Below, in pieces: positions 8,885-55,116 of a stretch of DNA of 58,852 nucleotides. Under the pieces are notes generated by a model, which saw only the letters and a program-made list of their open reading frames with translations, did no database searches and was not told the origin of the DNA. Numbering within the stretch: the first letter of the stretch is position 1; every line of letters starts with the position of its first letter. The position numbers were made by a program, and so were the translations under genes. The stretch comes from Bifidobacteriaceae bacterium (lineage in GTDB: Bacteria > Actinomycetota > Actinomycetes > Actinomycetales > WQXJ01), in NCBI GenBank assembly GCA_031265345.1, contig JAISCU010000371.1:1-58852 (forward strand). The letters run 5' to 3'.

Positions 8885-9631
8885 ATGAACGCGATTGTTA
8901 TCACCGGCGTCAGCTCTGGCATAGGCCTAGCCGCCGCGCGCCACTACATCGAGGCGGGGCGAAGCGTTGTCGGCCTGGCCCGGTCCGCCACTTCCAAGGC
9001 CGACGCGCTGGCCGGCGCGCACGGGCCGGCTCCTCTCCTGATCGACGTCGACGTCCAGGATCCTGAAGCGTTGGACGATGCCGCCGCCCGAGTCGCGGCC
9101 GCAGGCGTCAGTCCACGCTCGGTCCTCGCCGCAGCTGGCGTCAACTTCCGCTCGAAAGCGCTCGATATCCCTTCGGAATCAGTGGACGGCATGATGCGCA
9201 CCAACGTTCGGGGAGTGTTCGACGCCTTCCGCGCCTTCGCGCCCACCGTTCTTGCCACGCCAGCGCCCCGGTTCATCGCGATCGGTTCCGTGGCGGGCGG
9301 CTTCGGGATGCAGCTGCGCGTCATGTACTCGGCCACCAAGGCGGCTTTGGAAGGCATGGCGCGCGGCTTGGCGATCGAATGGGCGCCCCAGGGCGCGACA
9401 GTCAACGTGGTGGCGCCGGGCATAGTGGACACTCCTTTGACTCGCGGCTATCTGAACAAGAACCCCGGCCTTGAGGAACAGGTCGTCGCAGCCACGCTGG
9501 CGTCGAGGTTGGGAACCCCCGAAGACGTGATCGCCGCCGTCGACTACTTCGACTCCCCGGCCGCCAGTTTTGTCACCGGCCAGACGCTGGTCGTGGATGG
9601 AGGCTTCTCGGTTGGAAACACCTGGTGGTGA
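8885..9631 (+). CDS. Short-chain dehydrogenase/reductase
   Basis: A classical SDR of 248 residues. Cofactor motif T7-G8-x-x-x-G12-I13-G14 and catalytic S135, Y148 and K152 (MYSATKAAL), with the C-terminal GQTLVVDGG seen in sugar and polyol dehydrogenases. Strong GGAAAGGA ribosome site. Placed after the aldo/keto reductase and before the regulator, it probably oxidises the substrate sugar or polyol. Exact substrate unknown. Confidence 0.92.
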   Translation: MNAIVITGVSSGIGLAAARHYIEAGRSVVGLARSATSKADALAGAHGPAPLLIDVDVQDPEALDDAAARVAAAGVSPRSVLAAAGVNFRSKALDIPSESVDGMMRTNVRGVFDAFRAFAPTVLATPAPRFIAIGSVAGGFGMQLRVMYSATKAALEGMARGLAIEWAPQGATVNVVAPGIVDTPLTRGYLNKNPGLEEQVVAATLASRLGTPEDVIAAVDYFDSPAASFVTGQTLVVDGGFSVGNTWW

Positions 9632-9686
9632 AGTGGTCGCTAAGCTGGCCCGAAGAGGTCGGCCCACAAGTTTCGGGAGTGCAGCG

Positions 9687-10394
9687 ATGACGGCACAAGT
9701 CAAGCGTCAAGTGCTCGGTGACGGCGTGTTCGATGCCATCACCGAGATGCTGTTCTCCCAAGCCTTCGCCTCCGGCGACCGGATCAGGGTCGACGCCCTC
9801 GCGCGCGAATTGGGGGTGTCGCCGACGCCAGTGCGCGAGGCCTTGGCGAGAATCGAAGGAACAGGACTCGTGATCCGCGAGCCGATGCGCGGCTACCTTG
9901 TCGCGCCACGGATGAGCCCAGATGAAATAGCTGCTCTCATGGATGCTCGCATACTGATCGAGCCGCATAACGCGCAAGCGGCCTGCGCTCTCGGCGAAGC
10001 CGGTCTGCTCGAAGGACTGGTCGAGGCCTTGGAGCGGATGAGTCAGGCGCCGTTGGGTCCTGGACTGGCGGAATACCGACCCTTCTTGATGGCGGACGCC
10101 GATTTCCATGCCGTGATCGGCCGTCACTGCGGGAATTCCTTTCTGGCTGGCGCGGTCGAGAGCTTCTCGAGCCACCTGCGACGGTTCTCCCTGTTCGGCG
10201 AACGCCGGGTGCCCGATGCCGAGAAGGCGATCGAGGAACACCGCGCGGTCCTACAGGCCTTTCAGGAGCGCGACCCGGCCGCCGCCGCCCGAGGCATGGC
10301 CGCACACCTGGAAGGCGTGCGGTCCAGAGCTTTGGCCGAGTGCGCCGAATCAGATCCTGCCCGGCCTGACAACTCTCGTGCTGGTCTGGCTTGA
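9687..10394 (+). CDS. GntR-family regulator with FCD domain
   Basis: 235 residues: an N-terminal winged helix (about 10-72, with VSPTPVREALARIEGTGLV) and an all-helical FCD effector domain. Metal/ligand residues of FCD proteins are visible: D86 or D139, H141, H185 and H207. FCD regulators sense carboxylated sugars or acids, which suits an operon with lactonase and 2-hydroxyacid dehydrogenase. ATG 9687 has GGGAG six bases upstream. It is the last gene of the first sugar operon and likely its repressor; the near-palindrome at 1102-1117 is a candidate site. Confidence 0.9.
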   Translation: MTAQVKRQVLGDGVFDAITEMLFSQAFASGDRIRVDALARELGVSPTPVREALARIEGTGLVIREPMRGYLVAPRMSPDEIAALMDARILIEPHNAQAACALGEAGLLEGLVEALERMSQAPLGPGLAEYRPFLMADADFHAVIGRHCGNSFLAGAVESFSSHLRRFSLFGERRVPDAEKAIEEHRAVLQAFQERDPAAAARGMAAHLEGVRSRALAECAESDPARPDNSRAGLA

Positions 10395-15726: not shown

Positions 15727-16386
15727 TCACCAGCCGCGGGCCCACCACTCCTCCAGCGACGGCCGTTCCGCGCCCAGAGTGGTGGGCGCGCCGTGGCCCG
15801 GATGCACAATGGTCGCGTCATCGAAGTTCGCGAAGACGCGCCGGACCACGTCGGTCATCAATCGGCGGAAGCGCTCCGGATCGTGGTCGGTGTTGCCTAC
15901 ACCCCCGGGGAACAGCGAATCACCGGTGAACAGATGCGTCGGTTGACCGGTCTCCCGGTAGGCCAGCGCGATCGATCCGGGCGTGTGACCACGTAGAGCG
16001 ATCACGCTCAGCTCGAGCCCCGGCACGCCGACTTGATCGCCATGCTTGAGCCCCCGAGCGATCCGCACCCCGGTTCGATCCTGAATCGCGAGCGCGTCCT
16101 CGGCGCCGGCCAGCGTGGAGACACCGGTCGCTTGAACCAGCGGAGCCAGCGCCCTGACATGGTCGAAATGGCTGTGCGTGGTGATGATCAGGCTCAGTTT
16201 CGGTTCCGGCGCGTCGCCGTCCGCCGATCCCAGCAGACGCCCGATCGCCACCGGATCATCAGCCGCGTCAATCAGCACCTGATGGCCGGACTGGCTCGCT
16301 GTCAGCAGGTACACGTTGTTGTCCAGGTCGGACACAGAGACCGAGCGTATGGTCACGGCCGGGGTGGCGGCGAGCAGCGATTCCAT
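15727..16386 (-). CDS. Metallo-beta-lactamase-fold hydrolase (glyoxalase-II-like)
   Basis: 219 residues with all two-metal ligands: H71-x-H73-x-D75-H76 (THSHFDH), H134 (LRGHTPGS), D156 (TGDSLF) and H198 (HPGHG). The length and spacing fit the small hydroxyacylglutathione-hydrolase-like group, which cleaves thioesters such as mycothiol adducts in actinobacteria. It ends in the gap facing the DeoR gene and starts just beside a decayed TIM fragment, so its promoter must lie in that debris. Substrate unknown. Confidence 0.88.
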   Translation of the reverse strand: MESLLAATPAVTIRSVSVSDLDNNVYLLTASQSGHQVLIDAADDPVAIGRLLGSADGDAPEPKLSLIITTHSHFDHVRALAPLVQATGVSTLAGAEDALAIQDRTGVRIARGLKHGDQVGVPGLELSVIALRGHTPGSIALAYRETGQPTHLFTGDSLFPGGVGNTDHDPERFRRLMTDVVRRVFANFDDATIVHPGHGAPTTLGAERPSLEEWWARGW

Positions 16387-16403
16387 ACGACAGTCTTATC
16401 ACC

Positions 16404-16508
16404 TGCGCGGGCACCCTGTCGGCGCTGCGCCCGGTGGTCGACGGGCTGTTCCTGGGACGGTTCGCCCACGATCCGTCAGCCTTCGGGGCGATCAGGGCCG
16501 AAGCGGGC
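16404..16508 (+). pseudogene. C-terminal fragment of a second TIM-like (LerI/EryH-like) gene
   Basis: In one frame this reads A-G-T-L, then VDGLFLGRFAHDPSAF, G-A-I and E-A. It matches the end of the complete TIM-like protein 1.7 kb upstream (G-T-L, VDGLFLGRFAHQPESF, T-A-I, E-A) at most positions. Nothing of the first four fifths of the gene remains. The fragment lies between a hydrolase gene and the repeat bounding the restriction island, so it is probably a remnant left by rearrangement or island insertion. Confidence 0.75.
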
Positions 16509-16549
16509 TCGCTGCCCGACGCCTCAGAGGCTCCCATCGCCCGGCGCCA
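16501..16549. repeat. Left flanking direct repeat of the restriction-modification island
   Basis: It matches 20081-20129; the inner 42 bases differ at only two positions. On the reverse strand it encodes the same last residues and stop (A-P-G-D-G-S-L) as the response-regulator gene beyond the island. Such duplication of a gene's 3' end is what site-specific integration produces. Confidence 0.8.
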
Positions 16550-16698
16550 ACTCGATCAATGCCCTGCGGCTAACGCTGTCGGCTGCCCGAACGCCTGGTC
16601 CGAGGCATCGACTGAGCGTCTCCGCAAGAATGTCAGTGGCCGCCGGTAGCCTGATTCCAAGAGATCAAACTGGCTCAAGGAGAGGAAGGAGGGCCTCC

Positions 16699-18696
16699 AT
16701 GGCGACATCACAAGTTCCGCCTGTGGTCCCCGCCCAATCGGTGCCCGAAGGGATGGTCGCAGACTTCCTGACGGGCAAGATCGTCCGCAACACGCCCGAG
16801 GAGTACGTCCGCCAGAACATCGAGCGAGCCTTGGTGGTGCAGTACGGGTATGCGAGACGGGACGCCGAACCTGAGTTCACTATCCGTGTCGGCTCATCCC
16901 GCAAGCGAGTGGACGTCTCCGTGTTCAGGGCAGGTCACGCCCACACTCAGGACAACCTCGCGATCATCGTCGAGACGAAGCGCCCGGGAGTCAAGACCAC
17001 GTCTGACACCGAAGGCGTCGGACAACTCAAGTCATACCTTGCGAGCTGCGTCAACGCCCAGTACGGCATGTGGACCAACGGTGCCGAGGCCCGCATTTGC
17101 ATGGCGAAGCGGCAAACGGACGTGGGATTCGAATTCGACGACCGCCTGGTCGACATTCCAGCGTTCGGCCAGCGGGAACTCGACGCTCAACGACCCAAGA
17201 AGCGTGACCTCAAGCCCGCCACGGCAGACAATCTGCTCTTCGCCTTCCGGCGATGCCACAACTACATCGCGGCAAACGAGGGCAAGCAGAAACCAGAGGC
17301 GTTCTGGGAACTGCTCAAGATCATCTTCGGCAAAATCGAGGACGAGCGCTCTGCTGAACTGTCGTTCTTCACCACCCCGCAAGAGCGAGGCGACGCCACC
17401 TCGGCAGGCGCCGCCAAAGCTCGGCTCCAGGACTTGTTCATCTCCAAGGTCATCGGCAAGTACCCGACGATTTTCGGCGACAACGACCACGCCATCGACC
17501 TGCGGCCTGGCGTGGCAGCGTTCGTCGTGAGCCAACTCCAGGGGTTTTCGCTCCTGGGGTCCCCTGTGGACGTCAAAGGGGTCGCCTACGAGGAGATCGT
17601 GGGCGCCAATCTACGCGGAGACCGAGGCGAGTTCTTCACTCCTCGGAACGCCTGCCAGGCTGCCGTCACCATGCTCGACCCCCGCCCGGGCCTTAGGATT
17701 CTCGATCCAGCATGCGGAACCGGGGGTTTCCTCATCACAGCCATGAACCACGCCTTGGCTCACATCGAAACCGAACACCGACGGGACTGGACCGACCCGT
17801 CGGCCGGGACCCCCGAAGAATCGCTGGAACTCTACCGCGCGAGGGACAGCTATCTGAGCGACTGCGTGTTCGGCATTGACCTGAACCCCGGCCTGGCGCG
17901 AGCCGCGAAGATGAACATGGTCATGAACAATGACGGATCAGGGGGCCTATGGCAGGCGAACAGCCTGGACAACCCCATGAACTGGGACCCCGAACTGCAC
18001 ACTTCGGTGCCCCTGGGATCGGTGGACATCGTTGTGACCAACCCGCCCTTCGGCGCGAACATAATCATCGACGACCACGAGATCCTGCGGCAATACGACT
18101 TGGCGGCAAGGTGGGACCAGGACGACAACGGAAAATGGAGGATCCGCCCGAAAGGGACGGACGGGCAACGTCCGCTCCAGCGGTCGCAACCGCCCGAAAT
18201 CCTGTTCATCGAAAGGTGCGTCCAGTTCCTAAAGCCAGGGACGGGCAGGATGATCATGGTCATCCCCAACGGCATCCTCAATAACCCGAGCACTGGCTAC
18301 GTTCGTCAGTGGCTCCTCGAGAACACGCAGATCATCGCCGTAGTTGACATGAACCGCGACCTCTTCCAGCCGAAGAACGACACTCAGACTTCCCTCCTGG
18401 CCCTTCGGAGACTGTCGAAGCAGGAGAAGAGGCTTGCCCGCGACCAGGGCTTGGACTACCCGATCTTCATGGCCGTGGCCGAGACGATTGGCCACGACAA
18501 GCGAGGCAACGTGGTTTACAAGCGCGCGAGTGGTGGCGGCGATCTGCTTGTCGACCGGGAAGAGATCGTGACGGACTTCGATGACGCAGGCACGCAGACC
18601 CAGCGGGTCGTTGTCTCTCAGGAGCGCCAGGTCGATGACGAACTGCCCGTCGTGGCCGCAGCTTTTCGGCGACGGCTGGGGGCGCAGGTCGGATGA
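16699..18696 (+). CDS. Nuclease-methyltransferase fusion (HsdR_N-type domain plus N6-adenine methylase, HsdM-like)
   Basis: 665 residues. Residues about 30-140 resemble the type I restriction R-protein N-terminal nuclease: E58, D72 (RVDVSVF) and E92-x-K94 (IIVETKRPG), a PD-(D/E)xK arrangement. A helical HsdM N-domain (about 180-295) and methylase follow, with RGEFFTPR, SAM motif DPACGTGGF (337-345) and catalytic NPPF (448-451). ATG 16699 has GGAAGGAGG upstream; a much longer in-frame reading back to 16033 crosses the hydrolase gene and is spurious. No helicase/translocase gene is present. Fused R-M plus separate S resembles type IIB enzymes such as BcgI. Its stop overlaps the S-subunit start. 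Confidence 0.88.
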   Translation: MATSQVPPVVPAQSVPEGMVADFLTGKIVRNTPEEYVRQNIERALVVQYGYARRDAEPEFTIRVGSSRKRVDVSVFRAGHAHTQDNLAIIVETKRPGVKTTSDTEGVGQLKSYLASCVNAQYGMWTNGAEARICMAKRQTDVGFEFDDRLVDIPAFGQRELDAQRPKKRDLKPATADNLLFAFRRCHNYIAANEGKQKPEAFWELLKIIFGKIEDERSAELSFFTTPQERGDATSAGAAKARLQDLFISKVIGKYPTIFGDNDHAIDLRPGVAAFVVSQLQGFSLLGSPVDVKGVAYEEIVGANLRGDRGEFFTPRNACQAAVTMLDPRPGLRILDPACGTGGFLITAMNHALAHIETEHRRDWTDPSAGTPEESLELYRARDSYLSDCVFGIDLNPGLARAAKMNMVMNNDGSGGLWQANSLDNPMNWDPELHTSVPLGSVDIVVTNPPFGANIIIDDHEILRQYDLAARWDQDDNGKWRIRPKGTDGQRPLQRSQPPEILFIERCVQFLKPGTGRMIMVIPNGILNNPSTGYVRQWLLENTQIIAVVDMNRDLFQPKNDTQTSLLALRRLSKQEKRLARDQGLDYPIFMAVAETIGHDKRGNVVYKRASGGGDLLVDREEIVTDFDDAGTQTQRVVVSQERQVDDELPVVAAAFRRRLGAQVG

Positions 18697-20045
18697 AGCA
18701 GGCAACGGTCACAACCGCCGCGCTGCGCGAGGCGAAGCGCTTTGATGCAAAGTACTTCACCTCGGACGGCTGGTCTCTGCGGTCATTTCTCCGAACAGCC
18801 GGCACAACGCTTCGCGCCATCGCAGGAAAGGGAGGAATCGGCGCCGTCGAAGCCCCGCCCCGCTTCAAACGTGTGTACGCCGCGCCGACTGAGGCCTCGG
18901 TGCCCTATCTCCGCTCCTACGACGTGTTCGAGTACCTGCCGCCTGCGGCGGATCATCTTGCCGCCCAGTCTCAGACGTCGATCAAGCCCTACCGCATCGA
19001 GGAGGGACTTATCCTCCAGACATGTTCCGGAAGAAATCTTGGTCCGTTGACAATAGCCGACGAGTACCTGTCGGGCTTCGTCCTGTCGCATGACATGTTG
19101 AGGATCGCCATCGACGACGAGGCGCTGCGCTACTACGTTCTCGGATTTCTCCGGAGTGCCAGCGGCCAACGCCTGCTACGCGGCGACGACAGCGGCTCAG
19201 TCGTCAATCATCTCACCCCAACTCATGTTTCCGAGTTGACTCTCCCGATCTTCGACTGCGCCGTGGATCAGGTGGCCGGCCTCGTCAAGGATGCCTTCAC
19301 TACGCGCGCCGCCGCTCGCCGGACGCTCGCCGACACGATCGCCAGTGTCGATCAGGCGTTCCCGGTGCCCCGTCTCAAGAGTCGAAGCCTGGGCTGGGGA
19401 GTCACGGCTTCTGCTCTCAACGGCCGTCTGGACGCGGCATACCACGATCCAGTGGTCGCGGAAGCCCGATCATTGCTGTCCGGCGCTGGAGGAGTCGCCA
19501 TCGGCGATGCGGCCACGGTTCGCAAACCCGCCGGCCGCTACAAGACGGCGTATGTCCGCCGACATGAGGGCTTGCCGTTGCTGTCCGGGCGACAGCTCCT
19601 TCAAGCAGATGTCGTCGCCTTGAAGTACCTCTCGCGGGGGGCAATCGCCAATCCCGGCGACTACGCCCTGGGCCTTCATGACGTCTGCTTCCAGGCGGAC
19701 GGGCGAGCCGAGGAGAACCTTGGGACCCCGGTGTGCATCAACTCCGCCAGGCAGGGTTGGCTCGCCAGCGGGCATGTCGCACGGGTGCGCGCACTCGATC
19801 CGGCCGAAGCTGGCTGGCTGTGGGCAGCCATCGCCAGTCCAATCGTCCAATACCAGATCGCAGCCCTGGCCGCTGGCAGCGTGGTGGATGCCCTCTATGA
19901 AGATGATGTCGCCGGTGTGCTGTTGCCTCCGCCCGACCGAATCGACAGCGCTGCCGTGGTCGCAGCATGGGAAGCCTTCGCGAGGGCTGAGGAGCTCGAA
20001 GCCCAAGCACGCGTCCTGATCGAGGACCTCATCCCGGCAAAGTAG
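18693..20045 (+). CDS. hsdS: Restriction-modification specificity (S) subunit
   Basis: 450 residues with two diverged halves (about 1-220 and 230-450), as expected for two target-recognition domains separated by helical spacers. The first carries V-S-x-L-T-L-P-I-F-type dimer strand ends and the second begins after VDQAFPVPRLKSR. It starts inside the methylase stop (ATGA), so the two are made together. It would set the bipartite DNA site recognised by the complex. Sequence identity of the target cannot be predicted. Confidence 0.82.
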   Translation: MKQATVTTAALREAKRFDAKYFTSDGWSLRSFLRTAGTTLRAIAGKGGIGAVEAPPRFKRVYAAPTEASVPYLRSYDVFEYLPPAADHLAAQSQTSIKPYRIEEGLILQTCSGRNLGPLTIADEYLSGFVLSHDMLRIAIDDEALRYYVLGFLRSASGQRLLRGDDSGSVVNHLTPTHVSELTLPIFDCAVDQVAGLVKDAFTTRAAARRTLADTIASVDQAFPVPRLKSRSLGWGVTASALNGRLDAAYHDPVVAEARSLLSGAGGVAIGDAATVRKPAGRYKTAYVRRHEGLPLLSGRQLLQADVVALKYLSRGAIANPGDYALGLHDVCFQADGRAEENLGTPVCINSARQGWLASGHVARVRALDPAEAGWLWAAIASPIVQYQIAALAAGSVVDALYEDDVAGVLLPPPDRIDSAAVVAAWEAFARAEELEAQARVLIEDLIPAK

Positions 20046-20080: not shown

Positions 20081-20129
20081 AGGCGGCCTCGCTGCCCGAC
20101 GCCTCATAGGCTCCCATCACCCGGCGCCA
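20081..20129. repeat. Right flanking direct repeat of the island, overlapping the response-regulator 3' end
   Basis: The partner of 16501-16549. It contains the true last codons and stop of the response-regulator gene, so this side is the likely original site and the far copy the duplicate. Confidence 0.8.
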
Positions 20130-21009
20130 GCAGCCCCGTCTCGTAGGCGTAGACCACCACATGCACGCGGTCCCGCAGACCCAGCTTCTTCAGCACCGCC
20201 CCGACGTGCGTCTTCACGGTGGCCTCGGAGACGTAGAGCTTGGCCGCGATCTCGGCGTTGGTCAGGCCGAGCGCCATCTGGTCGAACACGTCCCGCTCCT
20301 TCGGCGTCAGAGTCGCCAGCTCCTCCCCGACGACCCCCTCAAGATCCTGCGAAAACGCTGGGCCTGGCGGAGCGGTCTCGGGATGCCCGATGCCGCTGAG
20401 TCCGCTCGCAGCGTCACCCCGGCCCCCGATTCGCCGGTCGCCCGCCATGCCACTGCCGGCCCGAGCCCCACCGGGCAAGCCAGGCCCACCCGCGTGCCCG
20501 GCCGAAGGAGCGCCAGGCAACTCAGGCGCGAACAGCTCCAACATGCGGCGCGTGACGCGGGGCGAGACGGCGGCATCGCCCGCTGCGACGGCCCGGACGG
20601 CGGCCACCAACTCTGCCGGGCGCACGTCCTTCAACAAGAAGCCGCTGGCACCGGCCTTGAGCCCGGCGAAGGCGTACTCGTCGAGGTCGAACGTGGTCAG
20701 GAGGATGACCTTGGTCTCAGGGTAGGTGGCGACGATCCGGCGGGTCGCCTCGATCCCGTCCATGGCCGGCATCCGCACGTCCATCAGGACCACATCCGGA
20801 GCCAGAGCCGCGACCTGCTGGACGGCGACACGGCCATCGGCGGCCTCCCCCACCAGCTCGATTCCCTCTTCGGCGCCCAGCACCATGGCGAAACCCATGC
20901 GCATCAGCGCCTGATCGTCCACCAGGAGCACCTTCACGGTGGCTCGCGCGCCCGCGCCCGCCCCTGCGCCAAAGCCTCCATCCGTCCCGTCTGCCGGACC
21001 CGCGGTCAT
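20104..21009 (-). CDS. NarL/LuxR-family response regulator
   Basis: 301 residues. Receiver domain 25-145 with acidic pair D31-D32, phospho-acceptor D77 (VVLMDVRMP) and K127; LuxR-type HTH about 232-290 (LTPKERDVFDQMALGLTNAEI). Between them lies an unusually long Gly/Ala/Pro/Arg-rich linker (about 162-226), and the first 24 residues are also Gly/Ala-rich. The gene is coupled to the sensor kinase by a 4 bp overlap. Its 3' end forms part of the island's direct repeat. Target genes probably include the nearby ABC exporter, by analogy with drug-responsive systems. Confidence 0.92.
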   Translation of the reverse strand: MTAGPADGTDGGFGAGAGAGARATVKVLLVDDQALMRMGFAMVLGAEEGIELVGEAADGRVAVQQVAALAPDVVLMDVRMPAMDGIEATRRIVATYPETKVILLTTFDLDEYAFAGLKAGASGFLLKDVRPAELVAAVRAVAAGDAAVSPRVTRRMLELFAPELPGAPSAGHAGGPGLPGGARAGSGMAGDRRIGGRGDAASGLSGIGHPETAPPGPAFSQDLEGVVGEELATLTPKERDVFDQMALGLTNAEIAAKLYVSEATVKTHVGAVLKKLGLRDRVHVVVYAYETGLLAPGDGSL

Positions 21010-22343
21010 TCCGACCCTCCTTCTCTCAAAGTGGCTTCGACCCGCCAGCCGCCTTCAGAGGTCGGACCGGCGGACAGCTCTCCCCCGAACACGCCCACCC
21101 GCTGGCGCATTCCGATCAGGCCCTGGCCGGACCCTTCCCAATCCCCATTTCTGAGTGAGTCCGAGCCCGGAGGCCCATTCTCCACCACCACCTGGAAGAC
21201 TCGCGGCGCCGGTTCGGTGATGCCCACCCGGACCCACTGCGCCCCGGCTGCGTGGCGCAGCACGTTGGTGAGCGATTCCTGGACTATCCGGTAGATCGCC
21301 AGGCCCAGCGCCTGGTGGTCCGGGATCGACGCCGCCAGGTACGCCATCACCGGCAATCCCGAGGCCTTGAACGATTCGATCAGCGGCACCAGCTGATCCG
21401 CGCCGGGCTGCGGCGCCAGTTCCTGGGTCGGCCCCGCCTCGCTGTGAAGCACCGACAACAGCCCCCGCATGTCCGTCACGGTCTGCCTCCCGGTCTCCGA
21501 AACCACGGCCATGGCCTGGCGTGCCCGCTCCGGGTCGCGGTCGATGGCCGCCTGCGCGCCATCGGACAGCGTCACCATCACCGCCACGGAGTGCGCCACC
21601 ACATCGTGCATCTCGCGGGCTATCCGCGAACGCTCAGCGGCCACCGCGATGACCGCCCGCTGGTCGCGCTCCAGCGCCAAGTGCCGGGCCAGTTCCACCA
21701 AGGCGGCGACGTAGCGGCGCCGGTTGCCCAGGTGGATGAAGACGGAGACCACGGCCGCGTCCAGGACCACGGACATGATCAGTTCGGCGTCGAACGCCCC
21801 GCCACCGCCGTAGAGCGACCCGAACAGCATCAACTCGACACAGGTGGCGGTCAGCCCGATCCAGGCCGCCCGCGCGCTGGCTCTCTGCGCCACCGCGAAC
21901 AGCGCGAACAGGACCAGCCAGTTGTCCGGCACGCCGGTCATGACCAGGCCGGACGCGTCCATCACCACCACGGCCGCCAGCAGACAGACCGGATGCCGCC
22001 GCCGCCAAGCCACCAGCAATACGCATCCCACCAGCGTGAACGCCGCGAAGAACCAGCTCGTGGCCGCTGCCGGCGAATTCGCCAGCACGGGTTTCGGTCC
22101 GACCCATTCGCCGAATTCGGCCCAGGTCCCGTACACGGTGACCATGGCCAGGGCCGGCAATAGGTAGATCCCCGCCACCGCGAGGTCCATCGCCACCGGG
22201 TGCCGCTCCGCGAAGCGCCGGAACCGGCCGGGCTCGGGTATGACGGGGTCGCCCGCGACTGGCGTGGGCGCTGCCGCGTCGCTCGCCGCGCCCTCCCGCG
22301 TCGGGGCTTCCACGCCGCCTGGTGACGCTTCGATTCCTACCAC
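21006..22343 (-). CDS. NarL-type sensor histidine kinase (HisKA_3)
   Basis: A membrane sensor of about 445 residues. There are five or six hydrophobic segments in the first half, the dimerisation/phosphorylation helix with EMHDVVAHSVAVM (the first His is the phosphate site), and a C-terminal HATPase_c domain ending with SGQGLIGMRQRV. GTG 22343 is chosen because a strong AGGAGG lies about eight bases upstream; an in-frame ATG at 22421 has no such site. It signals to the overlapping response regulator. The short extracytoplasmic loops suggest it senses something in or near the membrane. Confidence 0.87.
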   Translation of the reverse strand: MVGIEASPGGVEAPTREGAASDAAAPTPVAGDPVIPEPGRFRRFAERHPVAMDLAVAGIYLLPALAMVTVYGTWAEFGEWVGPKPVLANSPAAATSWFFAAFTLVGCVLLVAWRRRHPVCLLAAVVVMDASGLVMTGVPDNWLVLFALFAVAQRASARAAWIGLTATCVELMLFGSLYGGGGAFDAELIMSVVLDAAVVSVFIHLGNRRRYVAALVELARHLALERDQRAVIAVAAERSRIAREMHDVVAHSVAVMVTLSDGAQAAIDRDPERARQAMAVVSETGRQTVTDMRGLLSVLHSEAGPTQELAPQPGADQLVPLIESFKASGLPVMAYLAASIPDHQALGLAIYRIVQESLTNVLRHAAGAQWVRVGITEPAPRVFQVVVENGPPGSDSLRNGDWEGSGQGLIGMRQRVGVFGGELSAGPTSEGGWRVEATLREGGSE

Positions 22344-22674
22344 GAGTCCCCTCCTCCCACTTATGCCCGATGCCGTCCGCCTCCCCGGCGCCGACCGACG
22401 TCCTTCACCCGTCCCCGTCATCCCGCCCGCGATACTGCGGCGGCTTCGGTTCTACCAACCCCAACGTACCCACCGGATTCTGGCGCGTGCGCATCGGCTC
22501 CTGGCGGCCTCGATCCCATCAGCCTCGATCTGGGCACCGGGATCGTCCCGAAAGTGTAACTGCCCCGTGCGCAGCGAGTCGCTCGGGCTGATTGGTCCAT
22601 AAAACCGGCCTCCGCAATCAAGCGCTCCACTCTGCCGGCTCGTGGTCGGTGGCCGCCACGAGAGCCCCGCCCGC

Positions 22675-23016
22675 GCCGAGTCCGCCGATTCGCACCCCAT
22701 TTGTTCATCGACTCCGCTGTTCTGGTCCCCCAACCCCGTCGAGTCCGCTGTTTTGGTCCCCCAACCCCGTCGAGTCCGCTGTTCTGGGCCCTCGACTCCG
22801 TCGAGTCCGGGATTCTGCGCGCCCATAAGCGTCGAGTCCGCTAGTTTGCGTGCCATCGTTCATCGAGTCCGCTCTTCTGCATGCCCGATTCCATCGACTC
22901 CGGGGTTTTGCGCGCGCGTCCGCCACACGCGACACGCTGACCAGGGCAGACGCGAAAGGGCCGGAGCCAAAACAGCGGACTCGACGAACAACCGCATGGG
23001 AAACAGCGGACTCGAC
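22675..23016. repeat. 31 bp-period array of the motif RTCGAGTCCGCTGTTYTG
   Basis: Eight direct units start at 22675, 22707, 22738, 22769, 22800, 22831, 22862 and 22893. The first interval is 32 and the rest exactly 31. Two further units lie in inverted orientation, ending at 22985 and 23016, again 31 apart. About 15 to 23 bases of each unit are conserved; the rest varies. The repeats are too degenerate and spacers too short (about 8-12 bases) for CRISPR. Thirty-one bases is close to three helical turns, so all motifs would face the same side of the DNA. Confidence 0.9.
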
Positions 23017-23112
23017 GAGTCCCAGGCCCCAAAACATCTCCCCAGCCTGCGGATTGCCACTCGCAGACCAGCCCATCCGGGCCGGGGTCCTCTACCGTTC
23101 CCATCATCCCGC

Positions 23113-23149
23113 CCGGCAGAACGGGGGGCCTGTCCCCCGTTCTGACCGG
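23113..23149. repeat. 11 bp perfect inverted repeat with GC-rich stem
   Basis: CAGAACGGGGG and CCCCCGTTCTG flank a six-base loop, and the stem extends by CCGG/CCGG past a one-base bulge. No T-run is adjacent. It could be a terminator for either neighbour or a protein site. Confidence 0.6.
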
Positions 23150-23256
23150 CGCCGTGAGACGTCAGGCCGCAGTCTGGGGGCTGCCAGAACCGGGGCGAGC
23201 GATCCGGCCTGGTGGGCCCAGGGCGACCAAGCGGCATCGTGCATCAAAACAGATGC

Positions 23257-23295
23257 GCCGGGACGCGCCCGTCCCTCCTACGGGCGCGCCCCGGC
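23257..23295 (-). terminator. Strong hairpin after the ABC exporter operon
   Basis: A stem of 15-16 pairs, with one mismatch, around CCCTCCT starts 18 bases past the exporter permease stop. On the transcript strand it is followed by GCATCTGTTTTGATGC, which contains a T-run and is itself a small hairpin. A good factor-independent terminator. Confidence 0.75.
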
Positions 23296-23312
23296 AAGAA
23301 AGCCTGGGTCAC

Positions 23313-24176
23313 TCAGGCGTCGCGCCTCTTGAAGACCACGTAACCGCAGATCAGCGCGGCGGCGGCCCAGGCGGCCTGGCAGGCCATGCCGCCCCAGTAA
23401 CCGCCGAGCAGCGGTTGGCCGTCGGAACTGACGACACTTGACGCGAGCGTGACCGTCAGTTCGGCGGCCTGGCTGGGGAGGAGTTGGAGGACCGTGGCCA
23501 TCCACTCCTTGGCGGCGGCGATCATCATGATCATCGGGATGATCAGGTACAGGCCCAGACCGCTGGCGATCGCGCCCGCGCTGGAGCGGATGACGAAGCC
23601 CAGGCCCAGGCCCACCATGGCGGTGGCGACCAGCGCGAAGACCGTGCCCACGGCCATCTTCACCGCGTCGGAGCCGAACGTGGCGTCATAGCCTGCGGCG
23701 CTCATGACGGCCACCGCGGCGACAGTCCCGGCCAGCAGGGTCACAGCGCCTATGACCGCCGTGAACGCTCCCACGACCAGGGCTTTCGCCGCCAGCACGG
23801 GACCGCGCCGGGGAGCCACCGCCAGCGTCGACCGGATCGAGCCGGAACTGTACTCGCTGGTCACCGTCAGGGCGCCGAGGACAATCGCGATGACCTCCCC
23901 GACCATGAACAACGCCCGGCCGGTCGCGCCGACGGCGTAACCGTCAGCGTTCAACGCCTCGGCGGTCGAACTGAGTTCCGCCTGGCTCACCAGGCTGGAG
24001 ACCAGCATGAAGACGAAACCGATGGTCAGAACGAACAGCAAGACCGCGCACCACCAGGTGGAACGCAGCGAGCGGAGCTTGATCCACTCCGACTTGACGA
24101 TCCCGCCGAAGCTCAGGTTATGGCCCAACGCGGACCGGTACGGTTGGCCGGTGAACGGTGCGGCGATGGCGGTCAT
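23313..24176 (-). CDS. ABC-2 type transporter permease
   Basis: 287 residues with six hydrophobic segments and the ABC-2 membrane pattern (KSEWIKLRSLRSTWWC at the start, then GALTVTSEYSSGSIRSTLAVAPRR after the second segment). ATG 24176 is used because AAGGAG lies about eight bases before it; a longer frame would add 39 residues from inside the ATPase gene. It overlaps the ATPase stop by four bases. With the ATPase it forms an exporter, likely for a drug, lipid or peptide, placed beside a two-component system. Confidence 0.9.
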   Translation of the reverse strand: MTAIAAPFTGQPYRSALGHNLSFGGIVKSEWIKLRSLRSTWWCAVLLFVLTIGFVFMLVSSLVSQAELSSTAEALNADGYAVGATGRALFMVGEVIAIVLGALTVTSEYSSGSIRSTLAVAPRRGPVLAAKALVVGAFTAVIGAVTLLAGTVAAVAVMSAAGYDATFGSDAVKMAVGTVFALVATAMVGLGLGFVIRSSAGAIASGLGLYLIIPMIMMIAAAKEWMATVLQLLPSQAAELTVTLASSVVSSDGQPLLGGYWGGMACQAAWAAAALICGYVVFKRRDA

Positions 24177-25102
24177 CTGGGGGCTCCTTGCAAGACTGGG
24201 GCGGCCGAGCGGTACTCGACGGCCGTGTCGGTCAGTTTCATGTAGGCCTCCTCGAGCGAGGCGGTGATCGGGCTGAGCTCGTAGATGACCCAACCGCGCT
24301 GGGCGGCGGCCTGGCCTATCGCCTCCACCGACAGCCCCTGGACCACGATGGTCTCGGGGCCCTCCGCGGTGACCGTGACATCGGGCGAGGACAGGGCGGC
24401 AGCGATCTGACCGGCCTGCGGCGAACGCACCCTCGTGGCCACGCTGCTCGACGCGGCCACCAACTCCGCGACCGTCGATTCCGCGATCAGCCGACCCCTT
24501 CCAACCACGATCAGGCGGTCGGCGGTCAGCGCCATCTCCGCCATCAGGTGCGACGAGATGAAGACCGTCCTCCCCTCCGCCGCCAGCGACCGGGCCAGAT
24601 GGCGGACCCAGGCGACGCCCTCCGGGTCCAGGCCGTTGACGGGCTCGTCCAGGATGACGTTCGCCGGGTCGCCCAGCAGCGCGGCCGCGATCCCGAGCCG
24701 CTGGTTCATGCCCAGCGAATAGGTCTTGACCCGCTTCGAGACCACTGTTTCCAGACCGGTCATAGCGATGACCTGGTCGATCCGCTGTTTGCCGATCCCG
24801 TGGGTGGCGGCCAACTGCTGCAGGTGCGCCCGTCCGGACCGGGCCGGGTTGGCGGCCTTGGCGTCCAGCAGCGCGCCGACTTCCCTGAGCGGCGCCTTGG
24901 CTTGGGTGAATGGCTTGCCGTCAACGCTCGCCCGTCCCGCTGTGGGACGGTCCAGCCCCACGATCATCCGCATGGTGGTGGACTTGCCGGCGCCGTTCGG
25001 CCCCAGAAATCCAGTCACCTGGCCCGGTTCGATCGTGAAGCTCAGGTGATCGACGGCCAATTTCTGGCCGAACCGTTTGGTCAGACCTTCGACCTGAATC
25101 AT
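24173..25102 (-). CDS. ABC exporter ATP-binding protein (CcmA/DrrA-like)
   Basis: 309 residues. Walker A GPNGAGKS (34-41), signature SLGMNQ in place of LSGGQ, Walker B VILDEP and switch His in ISSHLM. The C-terminal 80 residues form the extra domain common in DrrA-like ATPases. AAAGGAA ribosome site. It pairs with the downstream permease. The direction and the neighbouring kinase/regulator pair fit an inducible efflux system, though the substrate is unknown. Confidence 0.93.
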   Translation of the reverse strand: MIQVEGLTKRFGQKLAVDHLSFTIEPGQVTGFLGPNGAGKSTTMRMIVGLDRPTAGRASVDGKPFTQAKAPLREVGALLDAKAANPARSGRAHLQQLAATHGIGKQRIDQVIAMTGLETVVSKRVKTYSLGMNQRLGIAAALLGDPANVILDEPVNGLDPEGVAWVRHLARSLAAEGRTVFISSHLMAEMALTADRLIVVGRGRLIAESTVAELVAASSSVATRVRSPQAGQIAAALSSPDVTVTAEGPETIVVQGLSVEAIGQAAAQRGWVIYELSPITASLEEAYMKLTDTAVEYRSAAPVLQGAPR

Positions 25103-25382: not shown

Positions 25383-26297
25383 TCAGACCGGAGACAACCG
25401 CCCGGCGATGGCCCGGCAGACCTTGTCGATCCCGCCGGCGGCTAGTTCCGGGAACAGCGACGGCTCGGTCAATTCGAGTTCGAGGAGCACCGGCGCGTCA
25501 TGGTCGCCCTGGACCAGATCGGCTCGCGCGTACAGGAATGGCCGCAGCGGATTGTCCAGGCAGGCCATGGCTCCGGCGATGGCGTCCTGGGCCACCGCGC
25601 GTTCGTCCGGGGTCGGCTCGTACCCGCCTTGGAGGGTCTCCGCCTGGTAGAGCCGTTCGCCGGAGACCGGCCCGCGCAGCATGGCGTCCTTGCGGACGGC
25701 GTAGGCGTACTGGCCGTCCAGGAACACCATCGACGTCTCGCCCTTGGTGTCCACGGACGGGAGATAACGCTGCAGCATGACCGACTGGCCGGCCTCGAGC
25801 AGCTTCAACGCGTGAGCGATAGCTTGACCCCGACCATACGAATCGTTGGCGGTGTAGCGCCCCGCGCCAATCGAACCGGCGGCGACTGCCGGTTTTAACA
25901 CAAAATCTCCTAAAGCGGGCATCCGGGTGTGTAAACCGCGCGCCCGCAGCCCCCGTTCCGGCTCCAGCCAAGTGGTCGGAACCACCGGCACGCCCCGGCT
26001 CTCGAGGTCCCTCAGATAGTGCTTGTCGGTGTTCCACTCCAACACCGGCGCCGGGTTGGCCAAGCGTGGCACGGACCGCGCCCACTGAAGAAACTCGTCC
26101 CTGCGCCCAGCGTAATCCCAGGTGGAACGCACAACCGAGAGATCGAACCGATCCCAGTCGATGGTGCGGTCGTCCCAGACGACCCCCTCGGCGCAGATAC
26201 CCATCGAGTTCAGACGGGGCACCAACACGGCATCGTAGGCGTCCAATTCGGGAAATTCACGACACGTGACCAGGGCGACTTTGGCCTGTTCGGGCAC
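25383..26297 (-). CDS. ATP-grasp domain protein (RimK-like)
   Basis: 304 residues. The N-terminal part (1-100) is a pre-ATP-grasp fold with DLSVVRSTWDYAGRRDEFL. The ATP-grasp core has VLKPAVAAGSIGAGR (nucleotide Lys and Gly-rich loop), VMLQRYLPSVDTKGETSMVFLDG and a final LELELTEPSLF that supplies metal-binding Glu residues. Such proteins ligate a carboxylate to an amine, for example adding amino acids or making small peptides. GTG start with AAGGAG seven bases upstream. It stands alone, so the substrate cannot be inferred. Confidence 0.85.
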   Translation of the reverse strand: MPEQAKVALVTCREFPELDAYDAVLVPRLNSMGICAEGVVWDDRTIDWDRFDLSVVRSTWDYAGRRDEFLQWARSVPRLANPAPVLEWNTDKHYLRDLESRGVPVVPTTWLEPERGLRARGLHTRMPALGDFVLKPAVAAGSIGAGRYTANDSYGRGQAIAHALKLLEAGQSVMLQRYLPSVDTKGETSMVFLDGQYAYAVRKDAMLRGPVSGERLYQAETLQGGYEPTPDERAVAQDAIAGAMACLDNPLRPFLYARADLVQGDHDAPVLLELELTEPSLFPELAAGGIDKVCRAIAGRLSPV

Positions 26298-26558: not shown

Positions 26559-27959
26559 GTGTACAAATCCACCCCTAACCGGCGCATCTACCTCGGCTCG
26601 GAACTGGTCGGATCAGTCGACCGGTTTCCTAGTCCGATCGAGTTCGACGACGACGATGACGACCGTTCGCCCTACGTCCCCGACCTGGGACTGACAGCGC
26701 GACTGGCCCGCACCGCTCAGCGCGGCGTGCTCGACTACGTCTGCATTGACGACACTTTGGCGGGCAATCCGCCATTCTCCGGCCGCCGTCGCGGCGGACT
26801 CGACTCGATCCGGCTGGCCACCCGGCTGGCCACCGCCACCGAGGGCGTCTGCCTGGTGCCGGTGGTCCGCTCCAGCTGGGTCGAGCCATCATCGTTGCTT
26901 GAAGCCCTGGTCGGCCTGGAGATCGCCTCCGAGGGCCGCCACGGCTGGGAGCTCCAATTGCTCGACCATCCCTCGCCCATGACCCATTCGGGCGAACTGC
27001 TGACCGCGATAGTCCAGGACACCTGGTCCGGTGGCGAGCCGCTGACCAAGCTCGCGGCTTCGGCTCGCGCTATGCGCCGCCAGCGCCTCGGCTCGACCAG
27101 CGACCACGGGCCGGGCTCCGAGGGGTCGGGTTCCGGGTCTCCCGGCCGTTCCGCTCGTTCCGGTGCGACCGGTCGTTCCGGGGGTGCTGGCCGTCCTGGC
27201 ACGGCCGGCCGTCCTGGTGCGGCAGCCCGATCTGGTGCGGCAGGCCGATCTGGTGCGGCCGCCCGTCCCGGCGCGGCCGGCGGTCCTGGCGCGGCCGGCG
27301 GCTCCGAAGGGCCGGGCCGTTCTGGGACGCCTGGCCGTTCGCCGGGTTCTGGCGGGACCGCCCCTGCCAAGAAGTCCGGGACATCCGCCCGGTCCGGCAA
27401 GTCGGGCGGCACGGGCGGGTCCGTCGCCGCGCCGTGGCGCCACCCGACCACGGTCATGCGCGCCGACACGCCCCGGTCCGCCGCTCTGGCGGCCGCGAAG
27501 GCGGACGTCGCCCGGATCAACGCCGTCTCCTTGGACGATGCCGCCGACAAGCGTGAGCGCATCCGGGCGGCTTCCGTGGAAGCGGGTCGGGAGCCCGGCC
27601 AGATCAAGGTCTTGGTGGACCTGAGCGTGACGCTGGCGAAGGACCAGTCCCACGCCGAGGCCCGCAAGGATCTGGCGGAGGAGATAATCGGCCAGCGTCT
27701 GGGCGGCGACCATGTGCGTTACGTGGGGACGCCAGCCGGCCTGGCCGAACGCTGCGTCGAGTGGGCCGACCAGGGCGCCTGCGACGGTTTCACCTTCCTG
27801 CCCACATCGTTGCCGATGGACTTGATGATGGTGGTCGATGGCGTAACTCCGGCCCTGGCGGCGGCCAACCAGTTCCCGTCCGCCTACGGCCGCCCCACCC
27901 GCCACGCCACGTCGCCGCGCTCGATCCCGGTCCCCCGCCGCCCCACCCCAGTCCCCTAA
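26559..27959 (+). CDS. Luciferase-like (LLM) flavin oxidoreductase with a long low-complexity insert
   Basis: 466 residues. The first 175 match FMN/F420-dependent luciferase-like monooxygenases of the NtaA group (LDYVCIDDTLAGNPP, then LATRLATATEGVCLVPVV and LVGLEIASEGRHGWELQ). The last 170 continue the barrel (INAVSLDDAADKRERIRAA, then LAERCVEWADQGACDGFTFLP). Between them about 110 residues are almost only Gly, Ala, Arg, Ser and Pro in imperfect repeats (183-290). The flanks read in one frame, so the gene may be functional with a disordered loop. It starts with GTG; an Asp-rich run sits at 30-36. Substrate unknown. Confidence 0.78.
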   Translation: MYKSTPNRRIYLGSELVGSVDRFPSPIEFDDDDDDRSPYVPDLGLTARLARTAQRGVLDYVCIDDTLAGNPPFSGRRRGGLDSIRLATRLATATEGVCLVPVVRSSWVEPSSLLEALVGLEIASEGRHGWELQLLDHPSPMTHSGELLTAIVQDTWSGGEPLTKLAASARAMRRQRLGSTSDHGPGSEGSGSGSPGRSARSGATGRSGGAGRPGTAGRPGAAARSGAAGRSGAAARPGAAGGPGAAGGSEGPGRSGTPGRSPGSGGTAPAKKSGTSARSGKSGGTGGSVAAPWRHPTTVMRADTPRSAALAAAKADVARINAVSLDDAADKRERIRAASVEAGREPGQIKVLVDLSVTLAKDQSHAEARKDLAEEIIGQRLGGDHVRYVGTPAGLAERCVEWADQGACDGFTFLPTSLPMDLMMVVDGVTPALAAANQFPSAYGRPTRHATSPRSIPVPRRPTPVP

Positions 27960-28975
27960 TCGGGGGACGATTCCTCGCCCAGTCAGGGAACCGTCCCTCG
28001 ACCAGTCAGGGGACGGTCCTGTGGCCCTTGAGCACGGCGTGGAGGTGGACTCGGTATCCACATGGCCTGACCTGCGGTTTCGCGCCCGCCGACCCCGGCG
28101 TCGGCACGAACAGAGACGGTGCCTTCATCGATGGACGCCGACCTGCCGAGACGAGCGTTTGGGCAGGTCGCCGTCGACCCAAAAATGCTGCCGTCTCCGC
28201 TCGGTGTCCCCAAGTCACCGCCGCGCACGGCCCGACCCTTGCCGCGGTGAGTTGGGTCACCGGGCGCACGATGCCGTCCCGTCGGCTAGAAGCGTCCGCG
28301 CAGGTCAAATCGTTCGCGGCCCCGGTGTCCCCTCCCGGCCGTGTCCTAAACCACCGTGGGAACGCCACGGATGGCTGCGGCGGTGGCTTAGGTCACACCC
28401 CGCCCGACGCCGCCCGGCCGACAACCAGCGTTCGCGCAGGTCAACTGATCGGGAGCATCGCAGACCCCTCCCGACCGCGTCCCTAAACCACCGTGGGAAC
28501 GCCACGGATCGCTGCGGCGGTGGCTTAGGTCACACCCCGCCCGATGCCGCGCGGTCGGCAATCAGCGTGCGCGCAGGTCAAGCCCGTCCACTGCTTTGGC
28601 GTCGTTCGGCGCGTGTGTCCCTCGGCCACCGCCGCGCGGCGTCCGACCCTCACCGCGGTGAATTGGGTCACCTCGCCCATCGATCAAACGGACGTGGGGA
28701 CGGAGATTCGTCGCGCACGCGAGCGCAGGCATCGCCCCTGCCGCAGTCCATCAACCGCCGACGGCCGGGGACGCACACTTCGGCCGCCACAGCCGACGCT
28801 CGCGCGGCCCGAGGGCGCCGCACGGGCCGGGCCCGCGGCATCGTCCAGGGCAATAAGCCCGGGGACGGAGACTCGTCTCAAACTCGCGGACACACGTGGC
28901 CCCCACGGCTTACACGACCAGGCCCCAACGCCACCCGAGGGTGCCGCACGGGCCGGACGGACGGCATCGGCCAAA
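27960..28975. other. Repeat-filled non-coding kilobase downstream of the LLM gene
   Basis: No gene found. It opens with two near-identical 23-base elements built on CAGTCAGGG and GGACGGT (27988-28030), has a stretch shared with 55008-55030, then a tandem array with a 136-138 bp period. Frames open on both strands carry no family signal. Confidence 0.7.
28209..28675. repeat. Tandem array of about 137 bp units containing a CCACCG/CGGTGG hairpin
   Basis: Unit starts lie near 28209, 28345, 28482 and 28619. Conserved parts in order: CCTAAACCACCGTGGGAACG, a CGGTGGCTTAGGTCAC arm closing the hairpin, then GATGCCG with G-G-T-C-G-G-C, and finally CAGCGTTCGCGCAGGTCA. The middle two units are nearly identical; the outer two are diverged. 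Two more full units occur at 37422-37656 and partial ones at 39855 and 54864. Confidence 0.88.
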
Positions 28976-40502: not shown

Positions 40503-41636
40503 ATGGTTGACACTCACATTGACGGTGACGTCGGCGCTCGGCGGGATGCTGCCGCATGGCTACGATCAACGCTTACCGAAGCCCTGGACCCAGCGGTCAA
40601 GACGATCAGAGCATGCATCGACTCCGAAGACTTCTTCGAGGGGCAGACGGCCGACGCCTTCCGGAAACGATGCCGGGAGATTCAACAGCAACTCAAAGCG
40701 ACCCTGGCCGCTTGCGAAGACACCGGCACGAGGATCTCTCTGTACGCGGACGCACTCGAAGACGCCCAGGCCGAGGCCGCCCGCGTCCGTCAGCGAGCCG
40801 TCTGGGCAGGACTCACCCTGGTCGAGTGCGACATCCGGCCACCGCCTGCCGTCAAAGCATGCCCTCCGTCCGAGTGGCGCCAGACCAATCCGGACCACTA
40901 CCGGTTCCACATGGACGCCTACAACGCCAATGCCGCCCTTTGGGATGCCTACCGCAGGGCGGTCAGCGAATGGGAATCGCTGGTGGACGAACTGGCCGGC
41001 GAATCTCAGCTTGTGGCCCGGCACGGGATTGAGCTGGAGGCTTTGGCGGTGCCAGCTCTGGAGCAGGCGCTCGGGGGCGGCTCCCGACTGGTCGAGCTTC
41101 ATGCTTCGAGACGCCGCGGCGGTCAGATCGGGCGGCTTCGCGCCGCCGCGGCGAAACGGGACATTGATGCCATCAGCCACGGCCGCGCTTGGCTGCCGAA
41201 CTCCCGCCTGATGGACCGGGCGGCGAAGCTGACGGCTGAGCCGTCGGCCGGCGAGGTCGGCGGACGTGTCGCTGGCCGGGTCATCGGCCCGGCGTTTACC
41301 ACCTATGGCGTCCACTCGGATATCGAGGCCGGAGAAAGCGCCGCCCAGGCGGCGGTGTCGCAAGGGCTGGGCATGGCTGGGGCAGCTGCCGGAGCGATGG
41401 CCGGGGCCAAGACCGGCGCTGTCGCTGGCTCTATTCTCGCGCCCGGGGTTGGTTCAGCGGTGGGTGGCGCCATCGGCGGTGTGCTGGGAGGCATCGTTGG
41501 CGGCGTCGAGGCCAACGACGCGATTGACCAAGCCTGGGTGGCCGCGGCAAAGAACCAAGAGGACATTCAGAAGTATCGCCGGGAGCCCACCGCGCTGCCA
41601 GCACCAGCACCGATCCCGCCACCGCCGGACGATTGA
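40503..41636 (+). CDS. Helical protein with Gly-zipper C-terminus, type VII secretion substrate-like
   Basis: 377 residues. The N-terminal 120 residues are helical and Ala/Arg/Gln-rich (AAAWLRSTLTEALDPAVKTI, then F-E-G-Q-T-A-D-A-F and an E-I-Q-Q-Q-L-K helix), reminiscent of LXG/WXG-type effectors. A long Gly/Ala stretch (about 285-340; GAAAGAMAGAKTGAVAGS, then VGGAIGGVLGGIVGGV) is a glycine zipper able to insert in membranes. It ends in Pro-rich sequence. Strong ribosome site. Flanked by the frameshifted small gene and a membrane protein. Exact role unknown. Confidence 0.7.
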   Translation: MVDTHIDGDVGARRDAAAWLRSTLTEALDPAVKTIRACIDSEDFFEGQTADAFRKRCREIQQQLKATLAACEDTGTRISLYADALEDAQAEAARVRQRAVWAGLTLVECDIRPPPAVKACPPSEWRQTNPDHYRFHMDAYNANAALWDAYRRAVSEWESLVDELAGESQLVARHGIELEALAVPALEQALGGGSRLVELHASRRRGGQIGRLRAAAAKRDIDAISHGRAWLPNSRLMDRAAKLTAEPSAGEVGGRVAGRVIGPAFTTYGVHSDIEAGESAAQAAVSQGLGMAGAAAGAMAGAKTGAVAGSILAPGVGSAVGGAIGGVLGGIVGGVEANDAIDQAWVAAAKNQEDIQKYRREPTALPAPAPIPPPPDD

Positions 41637-55050: not shown

Positions 55051-55116
55051 CGGGTGAGCATGGAATGGTACCGTCCCCGGTTACGGGTGAGCATGGAATG
55101 GTACCGTCCCCGGTTA
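55051..55116. repeat. 33 bp perfect tandem duplication at the ramB 3' end
   Basis: Two identical adjacent 33-base units, each containing GGAATGGTACCGTCCCCGG. The second ends on the ramB stop codon. The palindromic core GGGGACGGTACC resembles elements near 27990, 39911 and 54993. Confidence 0.92.

Follow-up and report, generated by a model that had tools for sequence, protein, structure and literature searches.

Ends of transposons of the Tn7 and Tn5053 type carry arrays of transposase sites, REP/BIME elements are interspersed repeats in which oriented short units, variable in number, occupy intergenic DNA, and sopC of F is reportedly a centromere array. Direct repeats are also reported upstream of parAB in Deinococcus radiodurans (PMC7671480), and in SGI1 the 31-bp direct repeats DR1 and DR2 hold parS sites, the two copies being set apart from each other and both containing an inverted repeat of 22 bp (PMC10954446). 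The locus described here lies in a window of 58,852 nucleotides, i.e., the whole stretch of DNA that was analyzed. Its array resembles the centromere and iteron arrays found on plasmids and secondary chromosomes in that several short sites are placed in a non-coding region, but it differs from them in the lack of a par or rep match in the window, in carrying sites of two orientations about a centre, and in its ordinary chromosomal gene context. As in Tn7 and Tn5053 ends, both of the facing arms hold several oriented sites; the differences are that just 57 bp separate the arms here, that no transposase family was found in the window, and that clear ends were not recognised. Oriented short intergenic repeats and a variable unit number are shared with REP/BIME, whereas the units here are not palindromic and form one array in 58.9 kb. 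The 31-bp length in common with DR1/DR2 of SGI1 is probably a coincidence, and the sites here differ in being tandem, with a unit that showed no dyad beyond TCGA.

The array contains seven direct copies of CRTCGASTCCGNNNKTYTG on the plus strand (positions 22708 to 22910; starts at 22708, 22739, 22770, 22801, 22832, 22863, and 22894), and the intervals between their starts are exactly 31 bp in six of six cases. A centre of 57 bp (22911 to 22967), to which no strand is assigned, separates the direct from the inverted copies. On the minus strand, the first inverted copy (22968 to 22984) matches TCGAGTCCGCTGTTTTG exactly, while the second (22999 to 23015) has two mismatches and starts 31 bp after the first. 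The first-pass annotation had described eight direct copies at intervals of 32 and then 31 bp, closed by two inverted copies 31 bases apart; the inverted pair was found, the constant spacing holds for the six direct intervals and the one inverted interval, and seven direct copies are firm, but the outermost one (22676 to 22692, plus strand) is doubtful, with four mismatches against the degenerate consensus TCGASTCCGCTGTTYTG and a position 32 bp before the 22708 copy. A possible third inverted copy (23030 to 23046, minus strand) is in phase but decayed, with the TGTTTTG half alone kept. In the four direct copies starting at 22801, 22832, 22863, and 22894, the middle of the motif deviates from the consensus.

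When the window was searched for TCGAGTCCGCTGTTYTG at up to three mismatches, 10 matches were obtained, nine of them inside the array, as opposed to a mean of 0.46 and a maximum of 2 in the same search on 100 shuffles. Self-similarity was scanned across the whole window in 250-bp blocks with a step of 50 and periods of 20 to 59; the top value, 0.644, was that of block 22701 at period 31, followed by 0.598 for block 27151 at period 36, over a background of 0.281 (standard deviation, 0.041). Tandem Repeats Finder called 22708 to 22809 at period 31 and 22708 to 22842 at period 62. The 31-base array with inverted copies is a real feature, and one such array is present in the window. A CRISPR array is ruled out by the 17- to 19-bp motif, the 14-bp linkers, and the inverted copies.

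The genes around the array are all on the minus strand, in the order ABC ATPase (24173 to 25102), ABC-2 permease (23313 to 24293; the stretch scanned was 23313 to 24185), terminator-like hairpin, array, HisKA_3 histidine kinase (21006 to 22421, also matching DUF7134), and LuxR-type (GerE) response regulator (20104 to 21009), with domains assigned by Pfam; the placement between a two-component system and an ABC exporter, as first annotated, is borne out by these flanking pairs. The hairpin after the permease gene resembles an intrinsic terminator (23256 to 23296, minus strand, 17 pairs). A database copy of the kinase (P0001, 435 aa) puts its start near 22313, so that the array sits in the approximately 0.94 kb separating the ABC-operon terminator from the kinase start, which lies about 0.36 kb beyond the array. 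An 18-base inverted repeat with 89% complementarity and 6 bases between its arms (23110 to 23151) separates the array from the permease terminator. Among the homologues of the kinase, five of the seven next after the window's own protein are named Bifidobacteriaceae bacterium, with 58 to 61% identity over those seven. The GC content is 66.7% for the window and 0.64 to 0.72 in 250-bp blocks across 22250 to 23374, and no sigma-70-like promoter was found in 22300 to 23330, a negative of little weight for an actinobacterium of high GC. For termite Bifidobacteriaceae, a GC content of 33 to 49% is reported (PMC11707648); given its much higher GC, the window is unlikely to come from those genera.

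From the window, 41 open reading frames (ORFs) were chosen by length and codon-position GC, and all 41 were scanned against Pfam. No replication, partition, or transposition family was found among them, and six were without any match (9576 to 10241, 18693 to 20042, 25383 to 26297, 41633 to 42664, 42835 to 44937, and 51196 to 53538). The suggestion of a partition-like site is thus not upheld, no par or rep family being present in the 41 ORFs; a par locus is not supported, neither a partition ATPase nor a centromere-binding family being matched among them, and nor is a plasmid iteron origin, given the lack of a Rep family in those ORFs and of an A+T-rich stretch, the local GC being 0.64 to 0.72 as given above. 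Besides the response regulator, DNA-binding domains occur in a DeoR-type ORF (14838), a LacI-type ORF (50166), and a helix-turn-helix ORF (55117 to 56850). The remaining genes serve transport and carbohydrate and amino acid metabolism or belong to an exporter set and to a restriction locus. In the latter (16033 to 20045), an 887-aa ORF matches HSDR_N_2 and N-6 DNA methylase; the ORF after it, of 450 aa, has no Pfam match and is a candidate specificity subunit.

The array is non-coding. Codon-position GC over it is flat in the longest plus-strand frame (0.64, 0.67, and 0.67), while the four neighbouring genes have a GC of 0.84 to 0.87 at codon position 3, and adjacent copies fall in different frames because the period of 31 is not divisible by 3. 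A translated repeat protein, which the first-pass annotation had named as evidence against its own reading, could be proposed from the open frames that span the array on both strands, but the change of frame from copy to copy and the flat GC next to such strongly biased neighbours make it extremely improbable; a coding tandem repeat is ruled out on the same two grounds, the period of 31 and the missing codon-position bias, and the description of the region as gene-free is sustained.

We then compared the motif with the linkers. In the 31-bp register, pairwise identity among seven units, with the two most recent duplicates left out, was 0.80 over the 17 motif columns and 0.45 over the other 14; with all nine units the values were 0.83 and 0.45, and about 0.29 is expected for random bases of the array's composition. 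Column permutation gave 0.0005 for this contrast, an optimistic figure since the motif limits were set after the data had been inspected, and in a rotation scan the best contrast started two columns upstream of the motif, with the motif itself second best. The core motif reads C[AG]TCGA[GC]TCCG, three free bases, and [TG]T[TC]TG. The one consensus unit tested showed no internal dyad apart from TCGA, which was noted by eye, and the orientation of the sites is therefore meaningful.

Three of the units, 22708, 22739, and 22770, have linkers that are alike, with 0 and 4 differences in 14 positions, and look like recent tandem duplicates; part of the regularity of the array would accordingly be due to tandem duplication, and the duplicates indicate that whole 31-bp units are probably gained and lost. 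The seven 14-bp linkers, i.e., those after the six direct copies from 22708 to 22863 and the one between the two inverted copies, carry at least 21 substitutions and no indels, a count that omits the centre and the 32-bp interval to 22676, itself an indel if that copy is real. The chance of zero indels is 0.055 to 0.35 at assumed indel-to-substitution ratios of 0.05 to 0.1 and 0.003 to 0.015 at a ratio of 0.2, so that the missing indels appear only mildly surprising, suggestive of selection on spacing but not proof of it. The proposal that spacing rather than exact sequence is kept is accordingly supported as to the constant spacing, whereas selection is not set apart from duplication of the 31-bp unit. 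The statement that the copies lie three helical turns apart is an approximation, as by simple arithmetic 31/10.5 is 2.95, with a drift of about 17 degrees per copy.

To look beyond the window, translations of the array were searched, with E ≤10 as the limit; the plus strand retrieved one of 196 scored candidates (E 1.5e-11), and the minus strand none of 129. The protein retrieved, hereafter P0121, is a 243-aa hypothetical protein from a 4538-base metagenome contig and is itself a chance ORF over an array. Because adjacent copies fall in successive frames, the spacing can be read from the protein; the comparison was made via translation, with motif fit expressed as the number of attainable bases of 17. 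Direct copies were located at nucleotides 420, 451, and 482, with 16 of 17 bases attainable in each (0.07 placements at 16 or better are expected by chance in this ORF), and inverted copies at 557, 588, and 619, with 15 of 17 attainable in each (0.87 placements at 15 or better expected by chance; one further 15 occurs at 259). Four of four within-arm intervals are 31, and the distance from the last direct to the first inverted copy is 75, compared to 74 in the window. Relatives with unequal spacing had been named in advance as contrary evidence; in P0121, the one readable relative, the spacing is equal and 31 throughout. A fourth inverted copy (13 of 17 attainable, about 25 such being expected by chance) and the inverted-copy placements in the upstream flank (0.692 versus a mean of 0.481, several of them 31 apart) were not relied on.

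The stretch common to the window and P0121 corresponds to 22795 to 23017 on the plus strand, with one extra 31-bp unit in the window. The left part of P0121 (81 nucleotides) fits best at 22795 (0.901), and its next placement (0.852) falls in a different register of the array; for the near right part (54 nucleotides), the best fit is at 22966 (0.889; next, 0.759). In the centre (66 nucleotides), the fit of 0.742 at 22906 is barely above an unrelated placement at 0.727, and the right half alone is visibly common (translated ADQ and RERAGAK). For a longer right part of 111 nucleotides, the expected place ranks only sixth, at 0.685 versus 0.721, because the window lost likeness past the second inverted copy. 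The linkers of P0121 were also compared with their counterparts: the first and second direct linkers match at 13 and 14 of 14 positions (next, 11 for both), and the first inverted linker matches at 11 of 14 (next, 10). The fourth, i.e., the second inverted linker, matches its counterpart at 5 of 14; its best fit is to the linker after 22832 when that is reversed, with 12 of 14 positions matching. Within the window, the linker at 22985 to 22998 is likewise nearest to the reversed linker after 22832, with 5 of 14 positions different. The inverted arm thus seems to carry reversed direct-arm linkers, as would be expected if an inverted duplication took place or a hairpin is maintained.

From the shared layout and the linker fits, it follows that the two elements probably had a mirror-arranged ancestor covering at least units 22801 to 23015, and a directional element with this arrangement appears to have been inherited as a unit over at least that range. 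The mirror layout, little stressed in the first-pass annotation, is on the translated comparison the feature common to P0121. The flanks of P0121 (414 and 78 nucleotides) have no counterpart beside the window array and are too short to separate an orthologous from a dispersed element.

Further copies were sought in several collections. No relative was found among plasmid DNA at E 1e-5 or among phage DNA at E 1, and a translated search of plasmids gave one chance-like match to a Cupriavidus plasmid (E 0.05). In the genome collection, an exact tandem pattern with start-to-start distances of 18 to 48 bp was met in one stretch, from an uncultured Prevotella; it is unrelated, its two copies lie 36 bp apart, and by eye it resembles a repeat located where a coding frame ends. 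This pattern would overlook diverged arrays, as it demands that neighbouring copies match exactly; its occurrence in that unrelated stretch alone suggests that the element is rare, lineage restricted, or has a drifting motif. Viral contigs gave no match to the tandem pattern or to the centre pattern; a single exact motif was found in seven stretches, none of which had another copy within three mismatches in the DNA examined, and a relaxed 31-bp pair in five, none an array on inspection, one of which (L011) has a three-mismatch motif at the pair. With the protein alignment, 16 pattern matches were obtained in viral contigs, and none was confirmed. A literature search for three motif strings of the array found none of them in the papers covered.

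We favor, at a probability of roughly 0.45, the reading that the array is a non-coding cis-element and acts as a platform with multiple sites for protein binding. One candidate DNA-binding protein would recognise each of these sites and load onto them cooperatively, keeping nearly to a single helix face, at seven (perhaps eight) sites in one orientation and, across the 57-bp centre, two (perhaps three) in the other, so as to form a mirror-symmetric complex that may bridge the two arms; the controlled target, for example the histidine kinase gene, is a guess. This reading is supported by the motif/linker contrast, the exact 31-bp steps, the element in P0121, its three linker fits, and the lack of a coding signature; counted against it are the single relative, read from protein, the misfit of the fourth linker, the poor rank of the longer right part at its expected place, the three recent duplicate units, and the rarity of the exact tandem pattern in the genome collection. 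Its main rival, which we regard as unlikely although deserving serious attention, is a lineage-specific interspersed intergenic repeat, REP/BIME-like or a MITE-like remnant, mobilised by a transposase that acts in trans and lengthened as the 31-bp unit was duplicated, with a spacing that reflects duplication and no function here. The matched core of P0121 between flanks without a counterpart is what such a repeat would give, yet the intergenic flanks of a true orthologue could diverge equally; the whole-unit difference between the two elements, the recent unit duplications, and the resemblance of inverted-arm linkers to reversed direct-arm linkers also fit it. Opposed to it are the presence of a single array in 58.9 kb, the yield of one relative from 196 plus-strand candidates and none from 129 minus-strand candidates, and the motif/linker contrast, which plain duplication does not predict. 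Nor were clear ends recognised: 56 boundary pairs reach 11 or more complementary bases of 14, the 12 listed among them lie in array motifs, the longest flanking duplication is 5 bp, and a REP/BIME-type palindromic unit was not found in the one consensus unit tested.

The location in the approximately 0.94 kb between terminator and kinase start would also suit a local operator array, through which the LuxR-type response regulator or another regulator controls the kinase genes or the ABC operon. We consider this improbable: LuxR-type and similar regulators usually need fewer directional sites than the roughly nine present, while little weight attaches, at high GC, to the lack of a sigma-70-like promoter in 22300 to 23330. 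The P0121 contig was also unmatched among the 120 listed of 6203 kinase homologues, a weak argument as a cut or clustered kinase would be missed and the 414-nucleotide flank is too short to include a kinase gene at the distance seen here. Still less probable is a long hairpin transcribed from the facing arms as a leader or small RNA. The predicted fold lies 6.6 standard deviations below 100 shuffles on the minus strand and 3.9 on the plus strand, and there is partial complementarity between the linkers of one arm and those of the other; however, any inverted repeat folds in this way, and these energies, arising because the arms face each other, are by themselves no argument for RNA. Judged by eye, P0121 does not seem compatible with the small hairpin at the centre of the window's array, on which we did not rely, and there were no Rfam matches at gathering score in the window, so that no known structured RNA family was recognised. 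At E ≤10, four Rfam matches, all far below their cut-offs, were obtained in 22300 to 23330: one to P37 at the terminator, two situated rightward of the array, and one to mir-1949 at 22994 to 23028, which overlaps the array with 16 bits versus 100.

The binding-platform reading can be taken further, as a speculation to which we give a low probability: high-GC actinobacterial chromosomes would carry mirror-symmetric platforms of a family not described before, their two facing arms, on either side of a centre, being filled by a directional 17-bp site with a pitch of three turns. On these, one protein would build a defined filament or loop, bridged between the arms, that serves to organise the chromosome or to silence genes at long range. 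If the layout is maintained through recognition by a protein, the array would offer a compact natural case, on an actinobacterial chromosome, of how a fixed helical pitch and the orientation of sites shape a multi-protein DNA complex; if it is merely an interspersed repeat, it would be a lineage marker of modest interest.

Other repeats were observed in the window. About 5 kb from the array, a 137-bp unit is present in 1.9 copies with 91% matches (28329 to 28581) and contains, by eye, the dyad-like stretches CCTAAACCACCG and CGGTGGCTTAGG. An 18/36-bp tandem repeat (27189 to 27325) lies inside ORF 26559 to 27959, which has a partial luciferase-like monooxygenase match (profile positions 159 to 240 of 314), and a perfect 33-bp tandem duplication (55051 to 55116) is located just past the 3' end of the helix-turn-helix ORF at 55114 to 56850.
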